Assembly: GCA_032358255.1 (NCBI GenBank)
Contig: JAULBX010029511.1
Location: forward strand, 1 to 21,606
Reading direction: 5' to 3'
DNA from: Heterotrichella gracilis
Lineage: Eukaryota > Sar > Xanthophyceae > Tribonematales > Xanthonemataceae
DNA length: 21,606 nucleotides
Made by a program: the position numbers and the translations under genes. The notes below the pieces were generated by a model. The model had not been told where the DNA came from, did not search any database, and saw nothing but the letters and a program-made list of their open reading frames with translations. Below, piece by piece: positions 23-21,247 of this stretch; the stretch's first letter is position 1; each line of letters begins with the position of its first letter.

Positions 23-3000
23 ATGTTGACGCACCTCGTCCGCACTGCCTCGGCGGCCTCTGCTGCCGCTGCGAGGTAAGGACTCTGCTGCATCGCACAG
101 CGTTCGTGCACTGACACTCCAGACGCCGTACAACCGTGCCTTTCCTCGTTCCCTGCTGCTTTGAGATGGCATGTAGACCGTCATGGCACACGATCGCGGT
201 TAGCCAGCACATCTGCCCACCATTGCTTTCAAGTCGATGCGAAAACGTGCTGCTGCGGGTTCCAACCCTGGTCTACCGGGTTCTGACCGATGCTTGGATG
301 CTTCAAGTGGCCCTTTCGTTGTCTTTGAACGTGGTGTTCGATGTTCGTATTCGTATCTGGGCGGTTGTCAAACACCCAGTGATTGTGCCCGACACCAACC
401 TGTGTCCAATCGGCACTTGTGCTCAATCCTACCCGCCGGGTATCACCCTCTCCCCCCCCCCAAGTACGAAGACTGTCGCCCACTTGGAGCTTCAACCTCA
501 CTGTTGCAAACCCAAAAACCCACTGCAAAATAGTCCCCTCTCCTCCCTCTGATGTCCACACGGCTACCACCACCACCACCACCCACCACCCACCCTCCCA
601 CCGCCACCACCCACCTGCATAGAGCTGTCACCCTGATTCTCCCTTCCCTTTCCCTTTCCCTCTCCTTTCCTTTCCACCTCCACTCACCACCTCCCACAGC
701 CACCTCCTGTAACCCACCCCCCACTCCCACCACCACCTCCCACCACCACCTCCTGGAACCCACCCCCCACTCCTCACCCCCCACCCGCAGGGCTGTGGCC
801 CCCGCCCTCCAGCAGCGCGCCATGGCCATGTGGTCGGTGGAGCGCGAGAAGGGGCACACTTACAAGGACCCCGACGCCATCATCGACGATGCAGCCATCA
901 CTGCGCACCTGGCCAGCACCCAGGCTGCGGCCAAGGACGTGCAAGCAGTGAAGGACATACTGGCGGCAGCCAAGGAGCGGTCGTTCCTGACGGACTACAA
1001 CCCTTGTGAGTGCCCTATGCGACATTGACAAAACCCTTGGGCATGGCCTCAAAAAACCCGGACAAAGCCCTCTAGCCATCACCCAGGGCAGCACGCTATC
1101 CGAGTCCATTTGGGAACCCTTGGCTAGGGTTTCCCTACACCAGTCTCCACCCACTGGCTCTGTACCATCACATTTACTGCCTCGCCTCTCCCCCACCCCT
1201 TTTGCCCCCACTCATACACCCCCACCCCCCACCCCTTGCAGCCAAGTCCGAGTACGTCCAGGGCCTCACCCCCCAGGAGTGCGCCACCCTGCTCAACATC
1301 GACGCGTATGATGTTCCCCTGATGGACCTCGTCTATGAGACCGCCTTTGCCATCAAGGAGCGCATCTACGGCAACCGGATCGTGCTGTTTGCCCCTCTGT
1401 ACATCGCCAATTACTGCGTCAACAACTGCAAGTACTGCGCCTTCAGAGCACCCAACAAGAAGATAGAGGTAGGTGTTGAGGCAAGGGTTCTTTTGTCGAT
1501 AACCTGGATAAAACCTGAGTGAACAATTGCGAGTACTGTGCCTTGCGGCACCTTGCCTTCAGGGCGCCCAACAAAAAGGTAGAGGTGGGTGGAGGGTTGG
1601 AGCAGTATCTGCCCTGAAGACCTGGGAATTGAGATTTTGCGGTTTAAAACCTGACCCTGAAAATAATTAGTGATCACTGCAACAAGTGCTGCGCCTTCAC
1701 GGCTGTCAACAAGAAGGTAGAGAATTTGCAGGATTAGGTTGCCACATCCCTGTCAACCCTAGCCTTCCTTCAAAACCCCTGACCGCCGCCCTCCCCCCCT
1801 TGCAGCGCAGCATCCTGTCTGATGACGACATCCGCTCAGAGGTTGCAGCGCTTGAGCGGCAGGGCCACAGGCGACTGCTGGTGCTCACTGGGGAGCACCC
1901 AAAGTACAGCTTTGACCAGTTCCTAAAGGTAAGCGCTTGCTAAGCTATGTGCATTAAAACCACACAGCACTGTCGGGAAAATCCCAGGGTTTGTTTTGTG
2001 TATTGTGTTGGTTAGTTCCGCGGCGCGTGCTCATGCTACCTCCAAGCTGTAGTTGGCCAGCAACTGTTGCCGCAGACCCTACTGAAACCCTACGCGCCCG
2101 CTACCCCCCAGGTCATCGACTTGATTGGCTCCCCCAGCACCGACCCCTGCAGCAACATTACCCTGCTGCCAAACCCTACAAAACCCTACTGAAACCCTAC
2201 CCGCCCACCCCCGCAGGCCATTGAGGCGATTGGCTCCACCCGCACCGACCCCTGCGGCAACATCACCCTACTGCAAACCCTACAACAATCCCTGCCCCAA
2301 ACCCAAACCCTACTGAAACCCTACCCGCCCACCCCCCGCAGGCAATCGAGGTGATTGGCTCCACCCGCACCGACCCCTGCGGCAACATCCGGCGCATCAA
2401 TGTGGAGATCCCCTCGCTGTCGGTGTCTGACATGAAGCGCCTCAAGGCAACCGACCGGATAGGCACCTTCACGCTCTTCCAGGAGACGTACCACAGGTGG
2501 GTGGGTGGGCGGGGAATCACCCTAGTTTAGGGTTTAGGGTTGGAATGGGGGACCTTCATCCGCTTCCAGGTGATGCACCACAGCTTGGGTGCGGTGACGG
2601 ATGGCATACTATGCCAGGCACAGTGCTTTCAAACCCAAAGGTAAGCCCCAGAGCATATCCTAAAACCCTAAACCAAACCCTACCCGCAGGCCCACCTTCA
2701 AGGAGATGCACATTTCTGGCCCCAAGAGCGACTACAACTGGCGCCTGCTCACGCACGACCGGGCCATGCGGGGGGGCATAGATGACGTGGGCATAGGCAC
2801 GCTGTTTGGCCTGTACGACTACAGATATGAGGTGGGTGGCCGGGGATTACTGTAGGGTGTAGGGTGGTGTGCGTGGGGTGTCACCCTTAGTGTGGTTGAC
2901 TTGTTGTTGGGTGCTCCCTGTAGGGTTTCCTGTCACCTAAAAAGAACTCAAAAACCTACCTCCAACCCTTAACCTGAGCCATAACCCCCAGATGATGGCC

Positions 3001-4746
3001 GCACCCTCCCACGCCAACCACGTGGAGCGGGAGGTCACCCAAACCCTAGACCCTACCCCAAAACCCTAATCTTAACCCCAAAACCCCAACCCTGCAGGTG
3101 ATGGCCATGCTGTCGCACGCCGAGCACCTGGAGCGGGAGTACGGGGCAGGGCCCCACACGGTCAGCGTTCCCCGCATGCGCAAAGCGGAGGGGTCGGATT
3201 TATCCAAGGACCCTCCCTACCCCGTGGACGACGCAAATTTCAAGAAATTGGTGGCCATCATCCGCATCGCGGTGCCCTACACGGGGATGATCCTCTCGAC
3301 CAGGTGGGCAACAGGAGTGCTCAATCAATCAATCAATAAACCCATGAGCTTTATTTGTCCTAACCATCCCTTTGCATTGGCCAACCGAAGGGTCAGGGTT
3401 TACAGTTCAATGTTGGTGCCTGATGTGTTGCAGGGTTTAGGTTTGCTGCTTGCTGTGGCGCAACCCCACTGGCCACTTGATACCCCCCTACCCAGCACCC
3501 AGCACCCACCGCCAACCACCCACAATTACACCCCTTTCCTGCAGGGAGTCCCCCGAGATGCGACGCGAGCTGCTCAAGGTGGGCATGTCTCAAATGTCTG
3601 CTGGCTCCCGCACAGATGTGGGCGCCTACCACCGGGACCCCTCCGATGTCACCGAACAAAACCTGGGGGAGCTGTCAGGCCAGTTCAGCCTGCTTGACCA
3701 CCGCACCACAAGGGAGGTTGTGGTGGATCTGATGGAGGGGGGGTATGTGCCCTCCTGGTGCACCGCCTGCTACAGGAAAGGTGGGTGGCATGGGAGAGGG
3801 GTGGGTGGTGGTGGGTGTGCTGGGTTGGGGGAAGGGGGGTGGGGGGGAATAGGAATCGCGGTGGGGGGTCAATTCAGTCTGGGCTGGATTATCGGAACAC
3901 TGGGGAGGTGATGGATCATAATCATCATAATCATTTCTTGCAGGAGAGCGAAACCGTTGAAGCCATGCTCACTTTATGTAACCTAAGTTAAAAGTAATGG
4001 GCTATGATTGGCTCACCCAACCCCTGTTTATTCTGACTGCCTCCTCCCCGTTGATCTAGGTCGCACAGGGGAGCATTTTATGAAGATCGCCAAGGCGGGG
4101 AATATCCACAACTTCTGCCACCCAAACTCCCTGCTCACGCTACAGGTACGCTGCAAAACTCTTCGCCATTTACCCTAGACAAGCCCATGCAGCTCATTCT
4201 TTGCTCTGCGGGTTGGCTGGGCAGGAAGAAACACTAAAACCTTGAAACGCCCCCTCTTTGCAACATGATCATTGTAACCTCCTTTCTGCATTCATGCCCC
4301 GTTCACGAGTCGCAAACCCCCCTCATTTACCCACACTGGGGCACCCTTGCCCTGCATGCTCTTGCCACTAAATTCCCCCACATGTGCCCATCACTGCCAG
4401 TACCCCTTTGCCAATGCATGGATCAGTGATGCTCCTGTGCCTTGCAGCATACCCACATTTCCCCTCCCCTCCTGCATGAGTACCTGAATGACTACGGTAC
4501 CCCCGCTGAAATTGCGCTGGGCCAAAAAAGGGGGTTTGTGTCCCACACATGCGCCACAAAATTACTCACATTTGCCCTCCCCATTCTCAGGAGTACCTGA
4601 ACGACTACGGCACCCCCGCCGAGGTGGCGCTGGGCCAAAAGGTGATTGAGCGCGAGATGGGGGTGGGGATCTCGGAGAGCGCACAGCGGCTGCTCAAAAG
4701 GAAGCTGGCTGCAGTGAACAAGGGGGAGCACGACGTGTACCTGTGA
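23..4746 (+). CDS. hydG: [FeFe]-hydrogenase maturase HydG (radical SAM tyrosine lyase), 10 exons
   Basis: Exons: 23-75, 791-1005, 1242-1468, 1806-1928, 2342-2496, 2690-2831, 3098-3303, 3545-3780, 4060-4145, 4591-4746; joined length 1599 nt, 532 residues plus stop, all GT..AG with matching phases. HydG cleaves tyrosine to p-cresol and dehydroglycine and makes the CO and cyanide carried on an Fe-cysteine synthon for the hydrogenase H-cluster. The radical SAM CX3CX2C motif is seen at C148, C152, C155 (CVNNCKYC). The C-terminal CX2CX22C motif that holds the auxiliary cluster is C446, C449, C472, exactly spaced across the exon 8/9 junction. Other family-typical stretches are LTGEHPKY, RRINVEIPSLSVSDM, LFGLYDYRYE, GMSQMSAGSRTDVGAYH and the end GEHDVYL. 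The first about 30 residues are rich in Ala, Ser and Arg, fitting an organelle transit peptide (plastid in Chlamydomonas). Exon 1 is the least certain part, resting on its ATG, perfect donor and phase. Introns 3, 4, 5, 6 and 9 hold decayed copies of exon edges. Confidence 0.95.
556..790 (+). repeat. CCA-rich low-complexity 3' part of hydG intron 1
   Basis: A (CCA/CCACC)n-rich stretch ends at the acceptor of hydG exon 2. Within it a block of about 50 nt is tandemly duplicated: CACCTCCTGTAACCCACCC near 702 recurs as CACCTCCTGGAACCCACCC near 748. It is a long pyrimidine/C-rich tract before the splice site. The open frames through it are composition artefacts. Confidence 0.6.
1521..1592 (+). repeat. 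Decayed copy A of hydG exon 3 3' end (radical SAM cysteine region)
   Basis: Lies in hydG intron 3. It matches the end of exon 3 (about 1414-1474), including the donor: AACAATTGCGAGTACTGTGCC against AACAACTGCAAGTACTGCGCC, with the donor kept as GAG|GTGGGT. It would read VNNCEYC...APNKKVE but carries an inserted stretch (LRHLA) and an in-frame TGA directly before it. Confidence 0.85.
1672..1724 (+). repeat. Decayed copy B of hydG exon 3 3' end
   Basis: Second copy in the same intron, more diverged: it would read DHCNKCCAFTAVNKKVEN against the exon's CVNNCKYCAFRAPNKKIE. The donor is destroyed (GAG followed by AATTTG). With copy A and the exon itself this makes a triplication of about 100-150 nt period. 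Confidence 0.8.
2109..2170 (+). repeat. Decayed copy A of hydG exon 5 5' end with acceptor
   Basis: In hydG intron 4. CAG|GTCATCGACTTGATTGG followed by CACCGACCCCTGC matches the real exon start CAG|GCAATCGAGGTGATTGG at 2339 onward. Similarity stops after about 50 nt of exon sequence and C-rich intron sequence follows. The acceptor AG is intact, but there is no usable donor. Confidence 0.85.
2214..2280 (+). repeat. Copy B of hydG exon 5 5' end with acceptor
   Basis: Closer copy, 125 nt upstream of the real exon start. CAG|GCCATTGAGGCGATTGG then the same CACCCGCACCGACCCCTGC. The upstream intron part (ACTGAAACCCTACCCGCCCA) is copied too. Splicing to this acceptor and reading through would meet a TGA just inside the real exon 5 region, so it should not give HydG. 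Confidence 0.85.
2526..2542 (+). repeat. Interstitial telomere-like TTTAGGG dimer in hydG intron 5
   Basis: TTTAGGGTTTAGGG just inside the donor of intron 5. The same intron ends with CCTAAAACCCTAAACC just before its acceptor (2660-2689), giving inverted telomere-like motifs at the two ends. Confidence 0.8.
2545..2592 (+). repeat. Decayed copy of hydG exon 5 3' end
   Basis: In hydG intron 5, about 80 nt downstream of the exon. ACCTTCATCCGCTTCCAG...CACCACAG resembles ACCTTCACGCTCTTCCAG...TACCACAG at the exon end. The donor GTGGGT has changed to CTTGGG. Confidence 0.7.
2989..3033 (+). repeat. Decayed copy of hydG exon 7 5' end with acceptor
   Basis: In hydG intron 6, about 106 nt upstream of the real exon. 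CAGATGATGGCCGC then CACGCCAACCACGTGGAGCG matches GTGATGGCCATG then CACGCCGAGCACCTGGAGCG at 3098 onward. The exon's KxEREY stretch is lost after GAGCGGGAG. Confidence 0.85.
4454..4527 (+). repeat. Copy of hydG intron 9/exon 10 junction
   Basis: Exactly 113 nt upstream of the real junction (4567-4640), without indels over the aligned part, and including the preceding intron tract. GAGTACCTGAATGACTACGG against GAGTACCTGAACGACTACGG. The acceptor has been lost in the copy (TCAG is CATG there), which would silence it as a splice site. Confidence 0.9.
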
Positions 4747-6082
4747 ATGGGAGGGGAGCAGGGGAGGTTGGTTTTCGAAAGGGGAGGAGGCGGTATTGGG
4801 TGGGGCTGGGTGAAGGGGTGGGTGGGGGTTGGAAGGCGAATGGATGGGTGGGTGTGGGGGAGTGAAAGGTCAGCCAAACTGCAGTTGTCCCTGGGGTTGG
4901 TGGCTGGGCACCCCAGATTCGATTTTTTGACTTGTAGCACAGAGTAATGGGAGGGTTTTTCTAGGGTGGGAAGGTACCCACTTTTTAATAAGAGCGTGTG
5001 GCAAGAAGGGTAGAAGCGCTGGTTGCTGTTTTTAGCGCCCTAGTGGCGGGGGCTCGTTTTTGAATGGTTAGAGATGGGACTGATTTTCGTTCACTGCACC
5101 ACCGGTTGGCATTTCCAGTGCGGATGCCAATTCAGCACGTTACAGCTGTGTCAGCAAGCACCCTCTGGCACCCCTGCTTGTGGCATGTGACGCCATCCAC
5201 CCCCGATCCAGAGGGTAGTGTCACACAATCAAGCGGGGACCAGGGGGGTGCGGAGCTGTGCCAGTTTGTGATACGTGCCATGTTTCAATGCACTTTCAAT
5301 GTATGAATCAAGCTCTTTTACCGTATGAAGCCCGCGGCGCGCGATCAGCGATCGGAACCAGGGTCAAACCTTTCGAAGCGCGATTAGCTCGCCGCGGGTC
5401 TGGGTTCTGAGTGCCTTTAACGCATGAAGCCCACGACGCGCAGCCCCACACACACATACCCCTGCATGCGCGCACCTTAAGAGTGCCTGTCAAGTGTTTC
5501 AACACCTGGACAAGTCTAGTCTAGCATAGTTATTCTGCAAGCTTGTTCAACAGTCAACAGCCCTTGTGTAGGGTTTATAGTTTCTCCTACTTTTTGCCCT
5601 TATAACAGTTGACATCCCCTCGTCTTAGACTAGGGCATAGGGTTTTCTTTGAATTTGCCCTCTTCATTCCCAGGCCTGGGCGTTCGTAGTGTCAAATGAA
5701 ACAATCCAGTACCTTTGCCCATCGAGGTTGCCTAGTTTACATTAGAATTCTGGGGGATGTCCCAAGGAGTACGCCTTCAAGGATACTGCTATGCCACTGT
5801 GCAGATTTTGAAACGCAAGATTGATTGCATGCCAGGGGTGTTGCTGTCATGCACTCAACATTGGGAGCTGAGATCCATGTGAAGGTTAGAAAGCTAGATA
5901 GCCTTCAGCTTCAACAGTCCTGCGGCAGGCTGCCTGCGAACGGAACTCTTGACAATAGACGTCTACAGCAGCAATGTCACATGAAGTTTATGTTTCCCCC
6001 TGTGCTTTTGGCCCTTCCACACGACGGGCATGCCTATGCCCCCCTGCAAGCTGCAGGTACAACCCAATTCAGCCCTGTGGAA
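4747..6082. other. hydG 3' flank and unassigned sequence
   Basis: The G-rich 3' flank of hydG (4747-4880) probably holds its 3' UTR. I see no convincing gene in the rest. Open frames on both strands are short and lack recognisable motifs or splice-linked partners. Contains the structured direct repeat at 5314-5443. Confidence 0.5.
5314..5443. repeat. Direct repeat pair enclosing an inverted repeat
   Basis: An approximately 30-nt motif, TTACCGTATGAAGCCCGCGG at 5318, recurs imperfectly at 5416 as TTAACGCATGAAGCCCACGA, 98 nt apart. Between them lies a perfect 9-bp inverted repeat, CCCGCGGCG (5331-5339) and CGCCGCGGG (5390-5398). Not recognised as a tRNA or a known element. Confidence 0.55.
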
Positions 6083-6856
6083 CTATACCCCATTTGAAAA
6101 TAGTCTGCCGTCACGGTGGCAGCTGCATCGCGCGGCGCCATTTACTATAATAAAAATTACCCCCTCAGGCCTATCTTTGACCAGCCGTTCTGGCTGGTGT
6201 GGTGCCCTGGTGCGAGCCAGTGGCCCCATAACTACGCCTCTGTGCATTCCGTTTCTTTCTTCTTCTTTCTTTCTTTGATCACCATTCTGTGTATGCCATT
6301 GAAGAGACTCAGTCTCCACTTTGTCTACCCCAGGCTGGCAGCAGAGTGCATTATGACGTTCACCGTTGGTGACCATTGTGGCGCCGAGTAAATTGCCAGC
6401 TAGCTTCAAGTTCATGGTGCGCAGTCTAGACAGCTGTGTCCCCCAGGTATAAATCTGCCTAAAGGTTGGCAACCTATTTGCAATGCGCGTTCCTTTCCGA
6501 AATGTTTTTACAAATTCCTCATAGCGGCACCAGCTGCAGGCTGTGAGTCTGCATGGCACCAAGCACTCACCACTGCCTGATGGTGATTGTAACAGCCAGA
6601 TGCACGATGCGCACCGCAGCATCAGGACCCTCATTGCCAGGGGTTTCATGTAGTACATGGGGCTGCCACCATGCACCGCCAGCAATGATTGCTGCACTGC
6701 AGTTGCAGCCTGAAGGCCCCACCACACTAGTTGCAACAGTAGTCCGTCCGACTCACACTGTGCAATGGCGGTGGCCAATGCTTGTGGATGCATTGAATGT
6801 GCACAGAATTTCTCCAAAAATTGCATTGCATGTGCACAGAGGGCCCGGGCCACCAT
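6083..6856 (-). CDS. Unrecognised long open frame, 257 codons from first ATG
   Basis: An uninterrupted minus-strand frame extends from about 7012 to the stop at 6083; the first ATG is at 6856. The protein is not recognised. It has a hydrophobic Trp/Leu-rich stretch (LLLQLVWWGLQAATAV) near residue 37 and CASCIW and CSWCRYEEF motifs in the middle. The second half is basic (EEFVKTFRKGTRIANRLPTF). A stop-free run of more than 300 codons at this base composition is unlikely by chance, so it may be a young gene, a single-exon orphan or part of a mobile element. No splice partner, homologous domain or terminal repeat was identified. It lies downstream of the FLU-like gene on the same strand. Confidence 0.3.
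   Translation of the reverse strand: MVARALCAHAMQFLEKFCAHSMHPQALATAIAQCESDGLLLQLVWWGLQAATAVQQSLLAVHGGSPMYYMKPLAMRVLMLRCASCIWLLQSPSGSGECLVPCRLTACSWCRYEEFVKTFRKGTRIANRLPTFRQIYTWGTQLSRLRTMNLKLAGNLLGATMVTNGERHNALCCQPGVDKVETESLQWHTQNGDQRKKEEERNGMHRGVVMGPLARTRAPHQPERLVKDRPEGVIFIIVNGAARCSCHRDGRLFSNGV
6250..6280 (+). repeat. TTTC-rich pyrimidine microsatellite
   Basis: TTCTTTCTTCTTCTTTCTTT tract. Simple sequence lying inside the unrecognised minus-strand frame, where it encodes a Lys/Glu run (RKKEEERN). Confidence 0.7.
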
Positions 6857-7113: not shown

Positions 7114-7169
7114 GGACGACATTGGGGATGGCTGCTGCCCTTGAATGGCGCGGATGCAGCAGTCCAAGA
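7114..7169 (-). repeat. Decayed copy of FLU-like last exon
   Basis: Lies about 222 nt beyond the real last exon (7322-7393). GACGACATTGGGGATGGCTG then GGCGCGGATGCAGCAGTC matches GACGACATTGAGGATGGCTG then GGCGCGGATGCAGCGGTC. On the coding strand an AG acceptor is present, but the copy is one base shorter right after it, so splicing here would shift the frame. Confidence 0.85.
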
Positions 7170-7321
7170 CTGCGACTTTGACAGGTATCAAACAGCAACC
7201 TTCTCCAAAGCTCCAGAAAAGCGGCGTGGGGACCTGCGAATCCAGTGGAGCGGCGTGTGGAGATTTGCCACTGCACAAGGCGTGCAATCGCCATGCAAAG
7301 CAGGGGCGTTGCAGCGTGGGA

Positions 7322-9285
7322 TTAGCAGTCCCATGTGGACGACATTGAGGATGGCTGCTCCTCTTGGATGGCGCGGATGCAGCGGTCATAGAACTGCACA
7401 GCCAAGGGAAGGAGGGGGTTAGCGGACTCGATCTGCAATTGGGCATTTGCAAATGTTACCAAGGATGATAATGCAGTGCATGGTTTGTGCCTAAGGTTCA
7501 ATTCCGTCCTGGCATTGCTTGTGCCATTTTTGAATGTGTTTTAACCTTCGGAATGAAATTTGCTTACTCACAGGGCGATTTATTTAAGGTCCAAATGGAC
7601 AGAACAGAGCAACAATAGTAACATGTGGTGCGCACGCATCGCACCTCGCCGGCTTTCTCCAGATCCCCCAGCTCCGCGTGCAAATCCCCAAGCTCCCCCA
7701 GCACATCCGCATCCCCGCTGCACTCCCCGAGCTCCAGGGAGAGAGCGATGCTGCGGTTCAGGGCAGCCAACGCACCCTGGGTGTCGCCAACCTGCAAAAT
7801 AAATAGATACATATTCAAATAAATGAATAATAAACAAATGGATAACTATGCCAGCACACCCTGTGTCGCCAACCTGCAACCCGCCCGAAGAGGGTTGGGT
7901 GGGAGTGAGCGTGGTAGCTCAAATGCAATGTCAAGGTATCCATTTATGTGGGCAACAATCAAGAAATGGAATTTTCTTTGTGGGGATTTGGTTGTGGCAC
8001 ATCCGCACTTGTTGTACTGCATCCCAAAACGCTACACAACATGCCCCACACATCGTTCCCCAATCCCCCCCCCACCTGTCGCTTGGCTTTTGCCTGCACC
8101 CTTGCCACCGCCCTCAGCGCCCTGATATCCATCATCTCCCCTGCAAGCTGCTCCCCATGGCCTATGATCTCAAGGGCTCGACTGCCATCCCCTGCCTGAA
8201 CAGCCACCTTGCTCTCACTGCGCCAGGGGAAGATTGGTATTGCATGACTCATGTAGCATGAGAAATAATTTTGATAAAATATTGCACCACAATAGTTATA
8301 CTGCGCCCAGATCCACACTACCAGTTATAAATCCTGCAGCCCTCCCAAAAGCTGTGCGCAACCATGCGCCGTGCGTACGCCAGTAGCCCTTCAACCCAAA
8401 ACCCTCCCCAAAACCCTACGCCCTGCACTGGAACCCTACCGTATGCTCTGCGCCAGCCTGCGCCTGGCCTGCGCCAGGGAGTAGCCCTCAGAACCAAAAC
8501 CCTCCACAGGGTGTGCGGCCGCGGGGGCGCCCAGCGCACTCTCCAGAGCCTCCCGGTATGCCCTGGCAGACTCCTGCTCGCTATCCACCGAGCATACCAG
8601 CGTCTGCGGGAGGGTTTGCGGGGCGAGTTAGGGTTTTTGGGGTTTGGTGGGGTGTTCAGATGCAATGTGGCACATGCCATCGAGTCAAGGCCGTGTCATC
8701 GCAGCATATACAGATGACACGGTCTGAATACATGCCTTCATGAATTTTTTCACCATTTCACAAGAAAGCAAGTCCTCTCCTGCCCCATCCCTTCCTGCGC
8801 TGACTCAGTTTCCACATTTCCACAATTTTGTACCAGCCCCTTCCCTTTTCCCCTCCCCTCCTGCGTGTGCGTACCTCCTCCGGTTCCATCCTCACCCGCA
8901 GCTGTGCGTTGATCACCCGCAGCTGGCTGTTCAGGCTCTCGAGTTCCACCCGCCGCCTGCGGGCCAAGGCACCGCCCACCACCGCACCAACCAGCGCCAC
9001 GCCCTGCGCAGGGTTGCAATCAGGGTTACAGCACGTGGCATCACCCATCATCCTTCGTGCTAGTGAGGAAGTGCATAGTGTCTGGCTTGCGAGAGCTAAT
9101 GCCTAGGGATGTAGGGTTTTGGTCTAGGGTTTGGTAAGGGTGTCGTGGATCCCCACCTGCAAGAGCATCACTGCTGCCATGCCATGGTGCCAACCTAACT
9201 TGGGTGGTAGTACTGGGGGCGAGGAAGGGACGGCAATCGTGGTGGTGGGTGTGGAGGTGCGTGCTGCGGAGATCTGGGGGTGCAT
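7322..9285 (-). CDS. FLU: FLU/FLP-like regulator of chlorophyll synthesis (membrane anchor plus TPR)
   Basis: Exons in coding order: about 9285-9157 (tentative N-terminus), 9003-8875, 8603-8440, 8217-8076, 7791-7645, 7393-7322; the last five total 654 nt with correct phases. FLU in Arabidopsis and FLP in Chlamydomonas hold back 5-aminolevulinate formation by binding glutamyl-tRNA reductase through C-terminal TPRs while anchored in plastid membranes. Here the hydrophobic anchor GVALVGAVVGGALARRRR is followed by a coiled-coil-like ELESLNSQLRVINAQLR. A linker with REALESALG, TPR-like helices (AGDGSRALEII..., GDTQGALAALNRSIALSLEL) and the diagnostic GELGDLHAELGDLEKAGEFY then lead to a short tail ending in STWDC. 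The linker and TPR region appear shorter than in the plant protein. Start unresolved: the frame stays open to 9495, and ATG 9285 gives an S/T/A/P-rich transit-like leader, but an upstream exon is possible. Confidence 0.85.
7852..7880 (-). repeat. Decayed copy of FLU-like TPR exon 5' end
   Basis: On the coding strand TTGCAG|GTTGGCGACACAGG copies the acceptor and start of the exon at 7791 (TTGCAG|GTTGGCGACACCCAGG), about 70 nt upstream in the intron. The acceptor is intact. Similarity fades after about 25 nt. Confidence 0.75.
8691..8722. repeat. Inverted repeat in FLU-like intron
   Basis: CCGTGTCATC (8691-8700) and GATGACACGG (8713-8722) form a perfect 10-bp stem with a 12-nt loop inside the intron between exons 9003-8875 and 8603-8440. 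Confidence 0.7.
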
Positions 9286-11565: not shown

Positions 11566-14510
11566 GTGAACCGCAATGGTGACCAGCAACGCAAGGCCCG
11601 CACCAGCAGCTCCTACCAGGACCTTGGGGCTGTGGAGACCCTAGGGCTGGGCAAGCTCGTGTCCCTCCTGGGGGTCTTTGAGATGGCGCAGCAGACCCAC
11701 AGCTGCATGGCGCTGCTCATCTCCAAGGCCTTTGCGGTGGCGGTGGCTGGGGGCTGGATGGCCAGCAGCGGACTGCTCATCCTGCTCAACAAGCACCTGA
11801 TGAGCTACGACAAGTTTGAGTACCCGATGGCCATGTCAGCGCTGGGGATGGTGTTCAGCTCGGTGGCTGCCTTCCTGGCGTGCAGGGTGAGTCCCTACAC
11901 TTTTCAGAAGCTGTGTCAGGCAGTTGCATGCATTGCAGCACTGTAGCCAGGGCCTGGCCTCCGGGGCGTGCGCCAGCCAGTCCCTGCCAGCCAGCACTGC
12001 TTTTTCACTCCCTGCAATAGCAGGTTCACCTCAGCCAAGTCATGTACGGCAAGGAAGGAGACCCTCAGCACTTGGGACGGTGGTCAGCTTGGTGGCTGCC
12101 TGCCTGGCGTGAGTCCACACACTTTTAGTCCATACTCCTTTAGGTCAGTTGTAGCTGGGCAGTTGTGCCGTGCACCCGCTTTCCGTCCACACCCGCACTC
12201 CATACTGCACCGACCTCCTCCGTGGCCCGTTTGGGTTGCGCCGGCTCACCACCTGCTATGCCCCACATCCGCCCAGGTGTTCAAGGTCGTCAAGGCGGAC
12301 AACCGAGTACCGCTCCAGATGTTCTGCACCAAGATGCTGCCCGTGGGCCTGGCCATGGCCCTGTCACTGCACTTTGGCAACGCGGTGTACCTGCACCTCA
12401 CAGTCTCATTCATCCAAATACTCAAGGTAGGGGCCTGCACTTCACCGTATCCTTGACACAATGTAGGGTTTAGGGTGTATTCCCTTGCCCTTGCTCCTTG
12501 GCAGCGTGGTCTACCTATTCACAGTCTCTCCTGCATTCAATACCCAAGGTAGGGTGGCAGCAGCAGGAGCAGCGCTGATCGCACTGCTTGCAACCCGCAA
12601 AAAATCCGCCCAACGCCCGCGAGGTAGCAGAACCCTTGCAGCAGGGTCGTGGGGGCAACCTGGCGCGTGTGGATTTTTAGCGCCAGCTTTTATGTAGGGT
12701 GCAACCTCGGCTGGAACTTAATGGACCCTTGCATGCACCGCCCACTGGCCACCAAGCCCTAAAAACTTACACACCCACTGGCCACCCTCCCCCATCTTCC
12801 CCAGGCCTTAACCCGCGTCATCACCATGCTTGCCCTCTTCATCGCCGGCATGGAGAAGCCTTCCCTGTCGCTTATACACTCCCCCATATTCTCAAACTTT
12901 CAGCACGCTCTTCCCCCACCTCCCATCCTCTAGCCGCCACACCCATCATCACCATGCAGGCCCTGCTCATCGGAACAGCCCTCCATGTCCGTCACAAGGA
13001 TCATTAACCCCTACCGTAGTTTAACATGCGCCTCCCCATCCTTCCGCAGGCCTTCACCCCCGTCATCACCATGCTTGCCCTCTTCATCGCCGGCATGGAG
13101 AAGCCTTCCCTGTCCCTCATCGGCGCAGTGTGCATCATTGCACTGGGCACAGCAGCGGCCTCCCTGGGAGAGGTCAGGTTCTCGTGGCTTGGCCTGGCGT
13201 TCATGCTGCTGGCACAGACCTTTGAGGCCATCCGCCTGGTCATGACCCAGAAGCTGCTGGTGGGACTGAAATTCCACCCAAGTGAGTGCGACAGGGGTAA
13301 TTGGTGTTCTGGGGGTGATGGGTTTGGCGTGTGAAAAGGGTGGCGTTGGGGGTGTCATGCGCGCCATGCTTGTGAGGGTCAGCCTGGGGAATATGGCTGC
13401 AGCTGCATTTCAAACACTGCGTGCTGCGGGGCTGGTGAAGTACTTCATGCATGCCCTGGGGTGCACGAGGACCTCCCGTCCACACACGCCCTTACTGTTT
13501 GTCCTCAATCTACTCCTCCACCGATCGCCCCCCACCTTTCCCCCACTTTCACCCCCACCCTCCCAACCGCCGCAGTCGAGGGCCTGATGTATCTTGCCCC
13601 CGCGTGCTCCTTCTGGCTACTGATGGGGGTGCGCGGCCACGAGTGGCATCGCATGGTGGCCAACAATGCCCTGGGGCGCATGGCGGCCAAGCCGGGCATG
13701 TACCTGGCGGCATCGGCCATGGGCTTCATAGTCAACATCCTGTCATTTCTGGTCATCCAGCAGCTGTCCTCGCTCACGCTCAAGGTGCGGGGACCCGCTA
13801 ACCCTAGAACGCCAAACCATAATCCTCTAAACCCTAGGACTGCGCGCGGTCTACATCCTGTCCCTCCTGGCATTCAGCAGCTGTCGTCGCTCACACTCAA
13901 GATGCGGGGGAATAGGCTCTCAATCCATGTGCAATGCCAGTAAAGGACCTTGTTTGCGAACCAGGTCTCTCATCACAGGTATGCTGGGCAATGTGAAGAA
14001 TTCGGTTCCATAAATGTTGCCCTTATGATGCATAACACATATACTTGTGGTGGGGATCTCCATTTATGGTTGGTGGGGACCGACAGTCAGTATGATGCAT
14101 ATATATTCGCTTCTGCTTATCCCTCCGCCACATCCACCTCCCACACTTATCGCCCCCCACACATCCACATCCACACCCACACCCACCCACCCCCGCAGGT
14201 CCTCGGCACTGTAAAGAACGCGGTGGTGGTGTGGTGCGGCATACTGTGGTTCGGGGACCGGGTCAGCATGATGCAGGCGGTGGGCTACGCAGTCTCCATC
14301 GGCGGATTTATGCAGTACTCCAACACAAAGTTGAAAAAGGCCACGGAGGGGATGGAGGCCGCTGGGCCCAAGGGGACGGATGGCAAGGGGGAGTACTCCA
14401 TGCTGAAGGACAGCGGGAGGGAGAGGGACAGCGGGGATGCTGGGCGGGCGGAGACGATGGGGGACAGCCATGGGGCGGTGGGGATGACGGCGGTCAAGTC
14501 GCGCGCGTGA
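11566..14510 (+). CDS. TPT/NST-family (DMT superfamily) transporter, N-terminus unresolved
   Basis: Exons: 11566-11886, 12277-12426, 13050-13281, 13576-13784, 14199-14510; 1224 nt, 407 residues visible plus stop, phases consistent. The fold matches the triose-phosphate/nucleotide-sugar translocator family: many hydrophobic helices (first about 54-74, second about 87-106), SGLLILLNKHLM near the start, and the family signature FxQxxKAxxP at residues 152-161, split by the exon 2/3 junction. EAIRLVMTQKLL, EGLMYLAPACSFW and the conserved TM-helix lysine region SSLTLKVLGTVKNAVVVW follow. A hydrophilic tail of about 60 residues follows SNTKLKKA. Substrate and membrane cannot be told from sequence. 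Exon 1 starts at an AG acceptor with no in-frame ATG upstream, so either an upstream exon is missing or translation begins at ATG 11683 (residue 40). Introns 1, 2 and 4 hold exon-edge copies. Confidence 0.88.
12036..12118 (+). repeat. Decayed copy of transporter first visible exon 3' end
   Basis: GGTCAGCTTGGTGGCTGCC then TGCCTGGCGTGAGTCC and ACACTTTTAG mirror the exon end GTTCAGCTCGGTGGCTGCC, TTCCTGGCGTGCAGGGTGAG and ACACTTTTCAG at about 11850-11908. The copy has lost the bases before the donor. It lies about 215 nt downstream in the intron. Confidence 0.85.
12496..12556 (+). repeat. Decayed copy of transporter second visible exon 3' end
   Basis: TTGGCAGCGTGGTCTACCTA then ACAGTCTCTCCTGCATTCAA and AAGGTAGGG match TTGGCAACGCGGTGTACCTG, ACAGTCTCATTCATCCAAAT and AAGGTAGGG at 12374-12432, about 123 nt apart. 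The donor is intact in the copy. Confidence 0.85.
12802..12877 (+). repeat. Near-identical copy of transporter third visible exon 5' end, acceptor intact
   Basis: Aligns with 13047-13122 at an offset of 245 nt; I count 4 differences over the first 69 exon bases. CAG acceptor and frame are intact, so a splice here would join in frame. It would read ALTRVITMLALFIAGMEKPS, then leave the homology and stop at a TAG near 12931. The conserved proline of the family signature is replaced by Arg. This is the youngest-looking copy in the window. Confidence 0.92.
12928..12990 (+). repeat. Second, more decayed copy of transporter third visible exon 5' end
   Basis: ACCCATCATCACCATGCAGG then CCCTGCTCATCGGAACAGCC matches ACCCCCGTCATCACCATG then CCCTCTTCATCGCCGGCATG. 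It makes the region a triplication with periods of about 122-124 nt. Confidence 0.75.
13862..13905 (+). repeat. Copy of transporter fourth visible exon 3' end
   Basis: ATTCAGCAGCTGTCGTCGCT then CACACTCAAGATGCGGGG matches ATCCAGCAGCTGTCCTCGCT then CACGCTCAAGGTGCGGGG at the exon end (13755-13793). The donor GT is mutated to AT, disabling it. Confidence 0.9.
13974..14010 (+). repeat. Decayed copy of transporter last exon 5' end
   Basis: CAG|GTATGCTGGGCAATGTGAAG then AATTCGGT mirrors CAG|GTCCTCGGCACTGTAAAG then AACGCGGT at 14196-14226. It would read MLGNVKNSV against the exon's VLGTVKNAV, so the protein-level resemblance persists. Confidence 0.8.
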
Positions 14511-15089: not shown

Positions 15090-15131
15090 CCATGGGTGGC
15101 AATGTGTGCGCCATGGGTGGCAATGTGTGCG
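15090..15131 (+). repeat. Two perfect 21-nt tandem copies
   Basis: The unit CCATGGGTGGCAATGTGTGC plus G occurs twice head to tail without a mismatch. A partial related unit (CCACATGGGCGCTGCA) precedes it. Confidence 0.85.
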
Positions 15132-15343
15132 CCACCACACTGGCAACTGGCAACAGCAAGGAGGCTCGGGGGGCATAGCCGCCCCTCACCCGCAGCCTCA
15201 GCCTTCAGGGTTGGTGTGTGGGTGCTGGGGGGGAGTGGGGGGGGACAGGCAGCCTCGTGGTGAGCTTTTGTAGAACATCACGGGGTGGCTGGTTTGCAGC
15301 CTTAGTCAGGGTGTAGGTTAAACCTCCGAGGCATGTTTCCGGA

Positions 15344-15430
15344 CGTGTTTTTCGCCTGCGCTGGGCGTGTTTTTGTAGATTCTGGGGACACCCTGGCCAC
15401 TTTTCTGTTGGCCCAGGCGTGTTTTTGTGC
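15344..15430 (+). repeat. Three spaced CGTGTTTTT motifs
   Basis: GGACGTGTTTTTCGCC, GGGCGTGTTTTTGTAG and AGGCGTGTTTTTGTGC are spaced by about 22 and 53 nt. Short diverged repeats of no known function. Confidence 0.5.
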
Positions 15431-15953
15431 CCGTGCCCGACCCGCCAATTTTCACACCAGGGGTCCACAGTTCATCTGATTCCGTGATGCACAATAAGTG
15501 AGGGTGTAGGGTTTAGGTTTCGAGGGTCTATTTCAAATCGCCCGCTGGCACATGCGCCCACTCCGTGACGCAACGCTTGCAAATGCCCCAATATAACTTT
15601 TTATACCAATTTCTTATTCTCTGCGACGACGAGATGATCTCGGAGTACGTTAGCTGTTGATCGTCGAGCCACTTCATCACGATGGTCCATGAATCACCAT
15701 CTGATGCAGATGGGCGACGAATTGGATCGTAAATTATTCAGTGATGTACCTAGGATCAGACACACCGTGATGCCACTGGGCAACAAAGGCTTTTATGCCG
15801 GCTGTGACAGCTGTACCAGCATAATGATTATGGTACACCCATTTGGATGCAGCGTAAAGTTTAACTACCATAATGGGTCAAAGGCATGTTCAATGGCAAG
15901 GGAATTTCAACTCGCTGCGTTATGAGCGGCTTCTTGACAATGTTATGCAACTT

Positions 15954-15978
15954 GCAAGCCTAAGGGCCTTAGGCTTGC
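15954..15978. repeat. Perfect 12-bp palindrome with 1-nt centre
   Basis: GCAAGCCTAAGG, a central G, then CCTTAGGCTTGC. It is followed by further GGCTTAGCC/GGCTTAGGCC motifs to 16003. It may be part of a terminal or subterminal repeat of a small element. Confidence 0.8.
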
Positions 15979-16042
15979 CTGGCTGGCTTAGCCTGGCTTA
16001 GGCCTATTTTTACCCACTTTTCTTTTCCTTTCCAGCAAATTT

Positions 16043-16083
16043 CGCCACCATGATGGCGCATGGTGGCGGGAATTGCGCAATTC
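16043..16083. repeat. Hairpin followed by a 14-bp palindrome
   Basis: CGCCACCATG (16043-16052) pairs with CATGGTGGCG (16059-16068) across a 6-nt loop. The perfect palindrome GAATTGCGCAATTC (16070-16083) follows immediately. Confidence 0.8.
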
Positions 16084-17347
16084 AATCTACTTATTTTCAC
16101 CAGGCTAAGCTGGGCATTTGATGTCCTGGCGAGTCTCAGCTGAGGATAGGCCCTGTAAACCGATAATCATCCCCTCATTTTTATTGATTCATGTGCAGCC
16201 AGGCTCTGTGGCGGCCTGCAGCTGACATCATATAATATTAAAATTGTGCACAGTGGTACCCGCGGGCCGAGGTTCAAGTTCAACTTTAGTATACATGCAG
16301 TGTTGATCACCTCCCAGATCATCTCGGATACCATTAAATGACGCCATCGGATTCGTTACCGTAGGCTACATGATCATAGGGTCCATGTCCAGTTGGCGCG
16401 CCCTTGGAGGGTCAAGTCGCAACATCACATGCCATGGCACTGAGACAAGTCTGCAGTAACACAGCGCCACAATGGAATTTTTAGCAGACTAATTGCGTTA
16501 CAAAGTCTTGGGCGCTTGGTCAAGGCAGGACCTGGTGTGATTGGCGAATCATAATGCCCCGCTGACATTGTCAGACCCCGATCCATATCAGCCTGCCATT
16601 GACCACACACCTGTGCGCTACTGCACAGCAGCATTCATAACAGCTATCATTAAAAGCACGATCACAAAACCTTTCCAAATACTGGCACCGTGCTGCATAC
16701 AAAACCCTAGCCACCGTTACAGTCATTACCTGTTCCAACCCCAATATACCACGCTGCACAAGAACCCACGCAGGGATGTCACTGAACTCCCCTGCCACCA
16801 ACCCCCTATCGCCACCGGGACGCCCCACCCCAATCCTAACGCACTGTGCCCTGCAAGGACTCCCCACCCTACCCTACGCTAATACCACAAACCCCCTCAC
16901 CCCACCCCACCGCCTGTCACCTCTGCCGCAATACGCGGCAAACACAATTCCAATATGCTCCTCCCCTTGCCACGACGTGCTCGTGCTTGCATGGCCACAC
17001 CCACATGCACATGCCACCCCGCCCACACCCACGCACCAAGCACCCTAGACCCTCCTGAGGCGGAGCAGTTCCCGCCTCCTCTCCCATTGCACGCCTGTAG
17101 ATGCTCCCCATCCCCAACACCACGCTCCCCATCCCCCCATGCGCAACCTCTCCATCCCCAGCATGTGTCAGCTCATGCTCAACATTCCAAAACACGCTGC
17201 CGCGCACATGCCCCGGCGTGTCACCCCCGCACACCCCGCACCCCATCCTGGCCTCCAGCAGCACACACATCAACACGCGAAAGCCAAAGTTGGCAACAGC
17301 AGAGATATCCCCTTGCCGGTGAAATCACGTTATTTCCCCTGCCCTTG

Positions 17348-20300
17348 CTACAAGCTGTCCGCCCCCTTGGCCTGGCGGGCCACCACGCACTTGGCCATGG
17401 TCTGGGATGCGCGGCTGATTGCGTCTGTCATGTAGAAGGTGGTCACCGGGGAGGACAGGGGCGCGGGGCTGAGGGGGGCCTTGGAGGCGGAGGAGGCAAA
17501 CGCCTGCGGTGGGGTGCGGGGGTGGGGGGTCAGGAGTGGGGGGTGGAAGCTGGGGGTCAGGAGTGGGGATAGGGCCACGGCAAGTATGTCACAGGTACAC
17601 AAGTTTGCCGTACCATCTACACTTGTAATCACACCCCTGCTTTGATAGCATGCTCACAATGACACACACCAGCCCAAGCCCAAGCCCCAGTCCCATTCCT
17701 TGCAAGTAAAGTACTGGACGTTGAGCCATAGGGGCGGCTCCACCCTGCCTTAGGGTATGAGAGCCTTGAAATATAGGGCTGGTTTAGGGTTTCACCTTGA
17801 AGCGCTGGCTGTTAAGCTACAGCAGCAGCTCTACCCTATCTCAGGGTTTTAGGGTTTACAACAAAGGGTTTAGAGTTTTACCTTGAAGTACTGGCCGTTG
17901 AGCCACAGCGGGGGCTCCACCCTGTCCCCGTGCGCAAGGTGGGGCGCCACCTCAGCCAGCCTCGTGCGCACCCCGTCTAGGGTCTCGTAAGGCAGCGACA
18001 CCCCCGCCACCTCCGACAGCGCGCGCAGGATCTTCCAATCATCGCGCGCGTCGCCAACCACAGACACAGCAGCCTGCGGGGGTGAGGTGGGGATGTTCAA
18101 CACCAAATATGGCTGCTGACTCATTTCCATTTGTTTCATTCACTATTTAATTCTTCCCTGACAACGACAATGTGGCATAACGCAGTTGACATGCAAGTCG
18201 TCCATGTAACAGATATACGTTTTTGTGCCCTTTTGAGTACAGATCCAGATGTTCTCAATGCCTGACCTCACATTTAAACCCTCCATCCTGCCCTGCAAAA
18301 AACCTGCACCGACGTTTGACCCACCGTCAAACCCTACCCGTATACCCTTACCTTTGTGCTCTGCGGCCTGCCCTCAAAGTTGACGTAGGTGGCTGTCTTC
18401 TCCGTGTAGGCGGCACCGGGCAGGATGATGTCAGCGCGCGCGGCGCCGGCGTCACCGTGATGGCCCTGGGGAGGGGGGTGAGGGTTAGGGGGTGGTACAA
18501 AACAGTTGATAAAGAAGACAAATGGATAAGAGTGTGCATGGTCGATTTTTGGGAATGACACCAGGCCCCCACCCCACCACCGCAGTGGCCCTAAAGAGGG
18601 GGTGGGGGGAGGGTTTGGTCTGTGCATGAAGGCACATGCAGGAACATGCACATACGCGCATTACAGGCACCAGTTCCAGATGTATCTCCCCCCATCTACT
18701 CCAACAACCATTCCACATGTGACCCATCTGTGACGACGAATTTGCTCCCACATTTGTAACCCCCCTGCTGTCAGGAGATAACCCACTATTTTGGCCCCTT
18801 TTCCCCCCGCCCACCTGGTAGATGACAAATGCGTCCTCCGGCACATCCTTGGGGTCAAAATCATCTGCCCCTAGTAGGTACACCAGCTTGGGGGGACCTG
18901 GGAGTGGAATACTCAGGATCAAGGTTTGGGGAGGGACAATACAATTAGTGAATCAGCAGGAGTATGGGATGATTAGTCATGTGCCTTCCAGGAACATAGC
19001 CATACTACCGTAGCCATCAACTTGCAGAAGCCGCGCCAAGCATGCGCCAAGCATGTGAAGTCCCTGCTTGGTGCGGCTTCTGCAAGTGCTGCGGCGTACA
19101 CCTGCTATACCATTTATCGACCTTGCCCTATGTAAGAACCCCGCTGGCTAGGTCAGGGGCTATGGAAGCGATCTTTAGGATGACACCCAACCATATGCCG
19201 CATTTCAATCGTGCGACCCAAATCCCTTCTCCAAAATGGGAGCTTGGAGGGGAAAACCTATGACTACCCAGTAGCCCGCCTATTGCGTGCACGCGCCGAA
19301 CCAATTTTTTACAGCCATGAACCCTAAATCCTGACGCCCCTCCTGGCTGTAAACCCTTAGCCTTAACCCGTAAACCCCGCCGCCCCACCTGCGTTGCGTG
19401 CGCGCGCCGATGGCAGGAAGCCGATGTCCAGTGCCGCTGTGCGCGACGCCGCCTCGTGCATTACGTTGTACCCGTTCCACCCCTCCTTCACGATGTTGGC
19501 CTTCTCAACAAGCTGGTGGATCTGCGGGTGGGGGAAGGGGGGAGGGGTTGGGTTGGGTTGGGGATAGTATTTAGGGTTTAGGGCTGCGGCTGGGCGATCT
19601 ACCCTAAGGGGCGGAGCACAATGGCAGCGGCCATGCCCACAAAACACATTAATACTTCCCATTTTTACCTTCTAAAACATGAGATTGCTTTGCTTTAAAC
19701 ATCAAGATTCATTATCCTTTGTATGCATGGCGACTGCAGCCAGCCACATTCCCAAATCCCCACCTGCTGCAGCAGCGCATCCCTGTCCCCGCGCGTCAGC
19801 GCCCCTGGCCCCACGATGACCAGCGGCCGCTGCGCACCCTTGAGGGTTTCCAGCCAGGGGTTCTTAGGGTCCAGCAGGGTTTTGATGGCCGCGGGTCCCT
19901 CCCCTAGGTGTGTGTAGGGATAGGTGAGGTCCACTGGGGATCCGATGAGCGCCACGGGGGTGCCCTCCAAATATGCCTTGCGGATCCTGCGGGCGGGGGT
20001 GGGGTGGGGGGTGAGTATGGTGGGGGCCTATTCACCCATTTGCGCAAACGAGTTTGATGAGGCCCGAATCAATGCAACCCAGTCACACCTTTGCACCCCA
20101 GCTTTGATCACCAACGAGCCCAGCCTTGTCCTGGCATGATCCAACCCAGCTTCAACTAGGAGCAAGCAGGTACCCCCAGCTCCCACCACCTCCACCCTCA
20201 CTAAACACCCACCCAACCGCCTCCGCCCCCAACCCCATTAAAAATATAATGCAATGAGCAACTTGCCGATAATATACAACTGAACCCTACACCCTAAAAA

Positions 20301-21247
20301 AACCCTAAACACCCCTCACCTTGCGTTGTACACCGGCGCCTCGATGCGTGGGTTCCCCCCGATGATGAGGATGGCGTCTGCCTTGTCCACCCCCGCCACC
20401 CCGCTGTTTGCAATGTAGTTGGAGCGTACATCGGCATCAAGGTCGGGGAAGCCACCCTCGCTCTGTGCCAGCGTGGGTTGATAGTTGATAGATTGTAATG
20501 CTTAATAACTTTGTCTTTTTTTGTGTGCTAATAGACGTCATCAAATACCAACCCTCGCTCTGCGCCAGGGATGGGTGGTGTGCGCATGGACCCCCATCCC
20601 CCACCCCAACCCGCCCCCGCCACCCATCCCCCCCTCCACTCACCACCAGGTTGCCGCATCCCAGCCTGTTGAACATGTCCTTCAGCGCCACCATGGCCTC
20701 GGCATCAGCCAGCCTGCCAGCCACAGCCTTCATCTCATTGCCACCAACCCGTGACAGCGCCTCAGCGGCTGAGTCGAGCGCCTCCTGCCACCGAACCGGC
20801 TTCAGACCCTGCCGGGAAGAAGAGAAACACAGAAATTAGAACCCAATAAACCGTTCCCGATGTCCTCTGCCACCGGACAGGCTTCAGGCCCTGCGGGTAG
20901 GAGGAGTTCAGACAGTCAAGTGATTGATTCTTGATTCACGAATTAATTATGTCCCATCCTTTGCCTATGTACAATGCCAGGAGTCCTGACCCAGAACCAA
21001 ACTGCTTTGCGCCTCATGTGCAAGGATGATTGCTCAATCAGCTGTACCGTTGGAAAGTATGGATTTTGTTTCAAGATATGTATAAATAGCTACCATCCTA
21101 AATTTCTCCCCGCCGCCGCACCGTTTCTGTCTTGACCATTGGCACGTTGAGCCTCTGTCGCTTGAGCCCGTCGTACTGGAACCTCGCCTTGTCAGAGATC
21201 CACTCCTCGTTCACGTCCTCATTCAGCCTAGCGATGATGCGCATCAC
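17348..21247 (-). CDS. NDUFS1: Mitochondrial complex I 75 kDa subunit (NDUFS1), C-terminal nine exons
   Basis: Exons in coding order: 21247-21122, 20808-20644, 20462-20320, 19986-19764, 19521-19389, 18897-18815, 18465-18352, 18073-17882, 17503-17348; 1335 nt, 444 residues plus stop, all phases consistent. This is the large peripheral-arm subunit of NADH:ubiquinone oxidoreductase. The visible part is the molybdopterin-oxidoreductase-like domain that in complex I lacks Mo. Diagnostic stretches: [113 protein letters not shown] and the C-terminus [17 protein letters not shown]. The ferredoxin-like N-terminal part with the Fe-S cysteines and import signal lies beyond the right edge. Donor of exon 20808-20644 was set at GTGAGT; an alternative GTGGTG one codon earlier exists. 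Introns before exons 20808, 20462 and 17503 contain exon-edge copies. Confidence 0.96.
17708..17752 (-). repeat. Decayed copy A of NDUFS1 penultimate exon 3' end
   Basis: Plus-strand GTACTGGACGTTGAGCCATA then GGCGGCTCCACCCTG matches the exon's GTACTGGCCGTTGAGCCACA then GGGGGCTCCACCCTG (17888-17925). The donor is lost. About 175 nt downstream of the exon in coding direction. Confidence 0.88.
17784..17880 (-). repeat. Cluster of telomere-like CCCTAAA motifs in NDUFS1 last intron
   Basis: Plus-strand GGTTTAGGGTTT, CAGGGTTTTAGGGTTTAC and GGGTTTAGAGTTTT; on the coding strand these are CCCTAAA-type motifs right after the donor, the reverse of the orientation usual near donors in this window. Confidence 0.75.
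17791..17837 (-). repeat. Decayed copy B of NDUFS1 penultimate exon 3' end
   Basis: Plus-strand TCACCTTGAAGCGCTGGCTG then TTAAGCTACAG and CAGCTCTACCCT is a second copy at about 88 nt spacing. Its donor (CTTCAAG|GTGAAA on the coding strand) is still present, but the coding part has acquired a stop (AGCTTAAC). Confidence 0.88.
19020..19087. repeat. Long intronic hairpin (23-bp stem, one mismatch)
   Basis: Arms 19020-19042 and 19065-19087 are reverse complements except for one position (a G-T wobble on one strand), with a 22-nt loop. It lies in the NDUFS1 intron between exons 19521-19389 and 18897-18815. Stem core: GCAGAAGCCGC/GCGGCTTCTGC. The loop repeats part of the left arm (GCCAAGCATG). Confidence 0.9.
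19560..19585 (+). repeat. Telomere-like TTTAGGG dimer near NDUFS1 acceptor
   Basis: Plus-strand ATTTAGGGTTTAGGGC, which on the coding strand is CCCTAAACCCTAAAT upstream of the acceptor of exon 19521-19389, followed by a long CCAACCC/CCCC tract. Confidence 0.8.
20547..20576 (-). repeat. Decayed copy of NDUFS1 exon 20462 5' end
   Basis: Plus-strand ACCCTCGCTCTGCGCCAGGG matches ACCCTCGCTCTGTGCCAGCG at 20454-20473, 97 nt further into the intron. The acceptor AG is intact. Confidence 0.8.
20857..20904 (-). repeat. Decayed copy of NDUFS1 exon 20808 5' end
   Basis: Plus-strand CTCTGCCACCGGACAGGCTT then CAGGCCCTGCGGGTAGGAGG matches CTCCTGCCACCGAACCGGCTT and CAGACCCTGCCGGGAAGAAG at about 20780-20822, 79 nt apart. 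The acceptor is intact. Confidence 0.88.

Follow-up and report, generated by a model that had tools for sequence, protein, structure and literature searches.

Decaying copies of exon edges in the introns of Heterotrichella gracilis, with telomere-like sequence at their seams

Tandem duplication as a source of introns is reportedly the subject of work by Gao and Lynch in 2009 and by Hellsten in 2011. The present analysis concerns contig C698 of Heterotrichella gracilis (JAULBX010029511.1; 21,606 nt, hereafter the window), from a genome assembly that comprises 903 contigs and 68.5 Mb, and the decaying copies of exon edges that lie in the introns of its four genes: hydG, a FLU-like (TPR) gene, a TPT/NST transporter gene and NDUFS1. 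About one exon edge in eight of this genome was found to have such a copy in the adjoining intron. The copies themselves had been reported in an original prediction made from the letters of the window; the telomere-like sequence found at their seams is new.

Tandem duplication is a well-known source of introns (PMC4974935, PMC2891723). Ma 2016 (PMC4974935) described small within-gene tandem duplications that included splice signals, and in its potato case an intron-exon structure was copied. In H. gracilis, by contrast, the duplicate is silent and the old junction remains in use, the copy lies inside an existing intron, many genes are affected, and the seam is telomere-like. A study of Drosophila (PMC2891723), on intron sliding and on tandem duplication, likewise describes splice motifs within exonic sequence that is duplicated near introns; it concerns new intron positions, whereas no change of position was shown here. 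Introners likewise change introns on a large scale and have green algae among their hosts (PMC9860276); no shared element family was seen in the present material.

Two further systems bring in telomeric repeats or the telomere machinery. Short interstitial telomeric sequences occur at repaired double-strand breaks, with target-site duplication as one outcome (PMC2246262), a minor one according to Table 1 of that paper (6 of 130 rodent and 4 of 25 primate loci). Here the tract was recognised instead through its place in a duplication seam, and is known without an empty site. CST-guided Pol alpha-primase produces small tandem duplications at breaks with 3' overhangs, that is, direct duplications of tens of nucleotides made by the telomere fill-in machinery (PMC8355091); those breaks were induced by a nickase in mouse embryonic stem cells, whereas here sequence scars alone are seen, with spacers and telomeric tracts. 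Silent copies that span a junction and have telomere-like seams were not found in earlier reports, in a search that most subscription papers lay outside and that is weak evidence of absence.

Exon-edge copies in the window

Hand-made models of the four window genes gave 30 exons and 26 introns, all of the introns in frame. Each exon edge, taken to a length of at most 75 nt, was compared with the intron it adjoins and, as a control, with the other 25 window introns. A score of at least 30 was reached by 15 of the 52 edges (0.2 expected from 1300 control comparisons) and a score of at least 40 by 11 of the 52, compared with 0 of the 1300 controls. Masking and repeat alignment gave 19 copies in 13 of the 26 introns. 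These results bore out the original prediction, which had counted about 17 junction copies in the four genes at offsets of about 70 to 245 nt (measured here as 82-254 nt), with decay from 4 differences in 69 upward (measured identities from 67/71 down to 49/64). One additional copy, of the last FLU-like exon, was absent from that prediction. The copies and their telomere-like tracts are listed below with offsets in nucleotides and identities.

1515..1584, + strand: copy of the hydG exon 3 3' end, offset 116, 46/55
1683..1722, + strand: second copy of the hydG exon 3 3' end, offset 254, 33/40
2115..2158, + strand: copy of the hydG exon 5 5' end, offset 230, 39/44; head-to-tail with the copy at 2217..2264 (period 105, 84%)
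2217..2264, + strand: copy of the hydG exon 5 5' end, offset 125, 45/48
2265..2283, + strand: telomere-like seam (accctactgcaaaccctac) directly after the copy at 2217..2264
2549..2583, + strand: copy of the hydG exon 5 3' end, offset 87, 28/35
2993..3033, + strand: copy of the hydG exon 7 5' end, offset 106, 32/41
4478..4527, + strand: copy of the hydG exon 10 5' end, offset 113, 44/50; includes an intron part from 4450
12065..12111, + strand: copy of the TPT exon 1 3' end, offset 229, 41/47
12483..12548, + strand: copy of the TPT exon 2 3' end, offset 122, 49/64
12805..12875, + strand: copy of the TPT exon 3 5' end, offset 245, 67/71; includes an intron part from 12786
12933..12994, + strand: second, more decayed copy of the TPT exon 3 5' end, offset 117, 49/62
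13849..13901, + strand: copy of the TPT exon 4 3' end, offset 117, 46/53
14047..14097, + strand: weak copy of part of TPT exon 5, offset 179, 37/47
20867..20890, - strand: copy of the NDUFS1 model exon 2 5' end, offset 82, 21/24
19283..19299, - strand: short copy of the NDUFS1 model exon 5 3' end, offset 111, 16/17, with its score at the threshold
17796..17840, - strand: near copy of the NDUFS1 model exon 8 3' end, offset 86, 35/45
17709..17747, - strand: far copy of the NDUFS1 model exon 8 3' end, offset 177, 35/39, better preserved than the near copy
17841..17881, no strand assigned: telomere-like tract, from its sequence, between the NDUFS1 exon 8 edge and the near copy
17781..17792, no strand assigned: telomere-like tract, from its sequence, between the near and far NDUFS1 exon 8 copies
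8351..8410, - strand: copy of the FLU-like exon 3 3' end, offset 94, 47/60
7850..7873, - strand: copy of the FLU-like exon 5 5' end, offset 82, 22/24
7114..7169, - strand: copy of the last FLU-like exon, past the stop codon, offset 223, 88%

The gene models to which these edges belong, each with in-frame splicing, are as follows.

23..4746, + strand: hydG, 10 exons (23-75, 791-1005, 1242-1468, 1806-1928, 2342-2496, 2690-2831, 3098-3303, 3545-3780, 4060-4145, 4591-4746); profile match TIGR03955, 1e-147
7322..9285, - strand: FLU-like (TPR) gene, 6 exons (9157-9285, 8875-9003, 8440-8603, 8076-8217, 7645-7791, 7322-7393); weak TPR matches under the Pfam cut-offs
11566..14510, + strand: TPT/NST transporter, 5 exons (11566-11886, 12277-12426, 13050-13281, 13576-13784, 14199-14510), with a start that may lie further upstream; PF03151, 1.5e-26
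17348..21247, - strand: NDUFS1, 9 exons with the 5' end outside the model (21122-21247, 20644-20808, 20320-20462, 19764-19986, 19389-19521, 18815-18897, 18352-18465, 17882-18073, 17348-17503); PF00384, 2.4e-93

The profile matches of the predicted proteins confirmed the family names of three of the four genes (hydG, NDUFS1 and TPT/NST). The FLU-like name is tentative, being taken from the label in the original prediction together with the weak, sub-cut-off TPR signal. Upstream of the first modelled NDUFS1 exon, near the contig end, there is an open frame at about 21250-21545 on the - strand, which we take to resemble the preceding part of the NDUFS1 protein; a GT donor was not seen where it was needed, and either a sequencing error or an unusual splice site may account for this.

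Extent, decay and placement of the copies across the genome

Twenty-seven stretches of up to 10 kb each were sampled from other contigs. Two of foreign composition (L002, 36.8% GC; L028, 37.1% GC) were left out, as were predicted genes with less than 300 nt of coding sequence and edges shorter than 30 nt (54 of 716); L017 yielded no gene. The two 10-kb stretches of foreign composition come from contigs C1 and C100; at about 37% GC, compared with 50-59% elsewhere, these may be foreign or organellar. A small gene finder, with the window as its first training set and 24 stretches as its second, predicted 37 genes and 358 introns, window included. When compared to the 30 hand-made window exons, it gave 27 exactly and 2 with a shifted end, missed 1 and added 2.

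Outside the window, 70 of the 612 edges in the 24 stretches scored at least 30, compared with 1.6 expected, in agreement with the prediction that copies of a range of ages recur in many unrelated genes. The window ranks high in this respect: when the automatic gene models are used, 14 of its 50 edges match, and the remaining stretches give 70 of 643. Pooling the window with 25 stretches yields 84 of 693 edges. A copy was present in 77 of the 358 predicted introns, or about 21%. The edge counts may be low, since several in-frame copies were called as exons by the gene finder. Comparison free of annotation gave 190 repeat pairs at offsets of 20-620 nt, including the coding repeat arrays of L011 and L019, compared with 2.25 per far 600-nt band, and the offsets peaked at 100-125 nt.

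The copies were direct in 84 cases and inverted in 5 (662 edges). Exon ends were copied downstream and exon starts upstream, with 57 copies on the expected side and 1 on the wrong side (202 exons tested both ways, window included). This polarity is as predicted, but it is not independent evidence of a mechanism, since selection for an intact protein enforces it: if the protein is to stay unchanged, splicing has to use the outer copy. Detected copies were about 17-130 nt long, mostly at offsets of 60-280 nt, and 58 of the 99 copies with a score of at least 32 reached the junction to within 5 nt.

Divergence of the copies from their source ranged from about 2 to 40%, and the copies decay neutrally, like sequence free of constraint. 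Codon positions 1, 2 and 3 had mismatch rates of.151,.157 and.202, multiples of three made up 10 of the 85 gaps, and the copied GT was retained in 19 of 28 cases (19.7 expected from the remainder of the copy) and the copied AG in 15 of 19 (14.8 expected). Alternative or mutually exclusive exons were rejected on these codon-position rates, gap sizes and GT/AG retention, all from genomic sequence alone. CpG sites differed between exon and copy (153 of 470) at about twice the frequency of other sites (506 of 3502); the decay of methylated C may be the cause. Introns with copies (77; median 330 nt) were not significantly longer than those without (281; median 288 nt; p = 0.19), and the continuing intron lengthening that had been proposed was therefore not supported; nor was a case of the proposed intron gain shown.

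After 52 exon-exon pairs, 3 mixed pairs and low-complexity pairs had been set aside, the repeat pairs comprised 87 exon-intron, 30 intron-only and 5 unannotated pairs; at an identity of at least 0.8 the numbers were 51, 10 and 2 (51 of 63 at an edge). Exon interiors matched in 7 of 222 comparisons. Coding edges are in excess over intron interiors and unannotated DNA. Decay alone does not produce this edge bias in simulation. The simulated units were placed uniformly at the observed offsets and duplicated in tandem over their full length, with a single neutral rate and an exon rate of 0.25. Edge, intron-only and unannotated pairs then arose as 4541:5404:2119, which is 38% edge pairs compared with the observed 87 of 122 (71%; p = 5e-14); the simulation counts units with less than 15 nt of exon as intron-only and the real pairs were classed by a slightly different 25% exon rule. 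Among the few young intron-only duplications is a predicted intron (L014, 3657-4334) whose repeats measure about 95-190 nt and are 88-98% identical.

Edges other than splice junctions were also copied. Of 16 stop-codon edges, 4 scored at least 30 and 2 were clear, the matches in L019 (GGT-rich) and NDUFS1 (score 32) being judged not clear; the intron edges gave 69 of 588, and the start-codon edges 1 of 9 (L019). As the clear stop-edge rate is close to that of intron edges, what is favoured may be the coding edge and not the splice site, although the numbers are small. A splice-only process was not supported, since clear copies lie past 2 of the 16 stop codons. The predicted bias towards junctions was thus recovered as an excess of edge pairs, but splice sites may not be the point of it.

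Telomere-like sequence at the seams

The seam was taken as the 20 nt adjoining the exon-interior end of a copy, on the side towards the exon; alignments shorter than 35 nt, below 75% identity or at an offset under 50 nt were excluded. Coverage by telomeric 6-mers was 0.275 in the seams and 0.093 in random windows of the same introns, with 0 of 200 random draws as high, and 27 of 51 seams held any telomeric 6-mer compared with 24% of control windows. The contrast was larger against introns without copies. At the outer copy boundary coverage was 0.031 (n = 45), and over the 78 exon-intron pairs the seam value was 0.264 against 0.141. A copy was found in 41 of the 172 introns with a telomeric 7-mer and in 23 of the 186 without one (p = 0.006).

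TTTAGGG is probably the telomere repeat of this genome. At least two contigs (C70 and C140) open in a TTTAGGG array, and a four-unit array had 209 genome matches, overlapping ones included; a TTTAGGG telomere has been called ancestral to green algae (PMC12633428, PMC8226300). Together with hydG and the FLU-like gene, such a telomere would suggest a green alga. The seams thus carry what is probably the genome's own telomere repeat, as do interstitial telomeric sequences at repaired breaks. Telomeric 7-mers were the 14 most over-represented 7-mers in predicted introns, at 9.55 per kb compared with 0.88 in exons and 1.78 in unannotated DNA. One peak lies in the first 40 nt past the 5' splice site and holds both orientations; another, mostly of CCCTAAA, lies 20-40 nt ahead of the 3' splice site and may be a branch-point mark. 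Also over-represented in introns were CATGCAT (101; 25.9 expected), ATGCATG (88; 25.7 expected) and TGCATGC (99; 32.5 expected).

Head-to-tail units exist, of 113 nt in L020 (98%), 106 nt in L025 and 110 nt in L016; the last two start in a telomeric tract and the first has a clean joint. In other young copies a spacer of tens to about 250 nt was present.

Origin of the copies

Our preferred explanation, to which we give a probability of roughly 0.5, is that break repair has repeatedly made small local duplications with telomeric filler, that these were tolerated wherever the coding copy survived, and that the copies are their scars. A staggered-nick break would fall near an exon edge, so that both overhangs bear that edge; fill-in and joining of the overhangs would follow, and would often leave telomere-like repeats at the seam. 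The outer, exon-contiguous copy would stay in splicing use and leave the protein unchanged, and the inner copy would then drift without function. The direct orientation, size, seam and neutral fate of the copies fit such repair. Telomerase or a CST-type fill-in may be the repair enzymes, and we infer that duplication by CST/Pol alpha-primase and telomeric insertion at breaks would have acted together here.

Several results weigh against this explanation. Among young pairs (identity at least 0.87; alignments shorter than 35 nt are omitted from the young-copy tables), the spacer was at most 5 nt in 2 of 18 and longer in 16 of 18. The tandem duplication of junction-spanning DNA that had been predicted was upheld in that the copies are local, direct, recurrent and usually include the junction, but most young copies are not simple head-to-tail units. 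Three queries, two of which were spacers, had no second place in the genome in a search that skips very common words, and with no other match for the spacers the source of the filler was not traced. Four edges have two copies each, and at two of these edges decay has gone further in the nearer copy (TPT intron 2, 49/62 against 67/71; NDUFS1 intron 8, 35/45 against 35/39), which counts against simple stepwise growth. Intron-only pairs gave no seam signal (0.094 against 0.124; 21 pairs), so that the seam is tied to exon edges only, and neither this nor the preference for coding edges is accounted for by the models tested. The match rate was uneven among stretches (chi2 50, 24 df) and tracked telomeric density weakly (rho 0.38, p = 0.06); a later stretch that was not used in training (L027) gave 0 of 31 edges. 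A related algal locus was not found in the genome-contig and viral-contig collections; a phage collection also gave no match. With regard to the nature of the spacers, dispersed repeats or haplotype duplicates were rejected on the three queries, each of which lay at one place in that search, and a decayed half of a tandem unit gave a weak signal (9 of 43 spacers in the top tenth, Kolmogorov-Smirnov p = 0.06).

It is possible, if unlikely, that nothing was inserted, and that the duplications end at fragile or slippery telomere-like tracts that already stood beside the splice sites, where they may have served as splicing signals or branch points. The peaks of telomeric 7-mers near both splice sites are consistent with this, as are copies that bear their own tract at the matching place and the units in L025 and L016 that begin in one. 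However, random placement of units at tracts predicted 28% edge pairs, too few for such anchors to have caused the observed bias, and the intron-only pairs lack a tract at the seam. Slightly less probable is uniform tandem duplication of which only the pairs with a constrained exon copy stay recognisable, the junction bias being one of ascertainment. This would explain the polarity and the range of ages, and the copying of stop-codon edges is in keeping with it. It was the initial expectation for the whole of the junction bias, but was rejected by the simulation, in which slower exon decay left edge pairs well below the observed share; moreover, the simulated young pairs aligned over the full unit (aligned length/offset 0.995), whereas the real ones aligned over about half of it (0.48).

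That the copies function as alternative exons, decoy splice sites or splicing regulators is very improbable. Some are in frame and several were taken as exons by the gene finder (for example in an HMGL-like gene, L021), but splice dinucleotides and codon positions decay almost neutrally and 75 of the 85 gaps are not multiples of three. Mobile elements such as Introners, or dispersed repeats, are hardly credible as a source: Introners have come to light mostly in lineages that evolve fast, green algae among them (PMC9860276), but the edges here match their own intron, and introns at least two away in the same gene matched in 29 of 7646 comparisons (0.38%), near the 0.26% null. No family of near-identical inserts appeared for the three sequences searched. 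An assembly artefact is just as implausible; the draft does contain 903 contigs, some of foreign composition, but artefactual repeats would be nearly identical, and the copies differ from their source to the extent given above.

A wider form of the break-repair explanation is doubtful: that throughout the lineage breaks at coding-exon edges are repaired by the telomere machinery (telomerase and C-strand fill-in), with a copy of the exon edge behind a telomeric seam as the product of each event, and that introns are largely such scars, built inward from both ends. The sources of intron sequence and length are poorly known because they are rarely recognisable. In this genome about 21% of introns hold a datable copy anchored to a constrained exon, so that a single genome would serve to measure the rate at which natural small duplications arise, their size spectrum and the chemistry of their seams. 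Should the telomeric seam stem from repair, intron growth would be tied to the telomere machinery.

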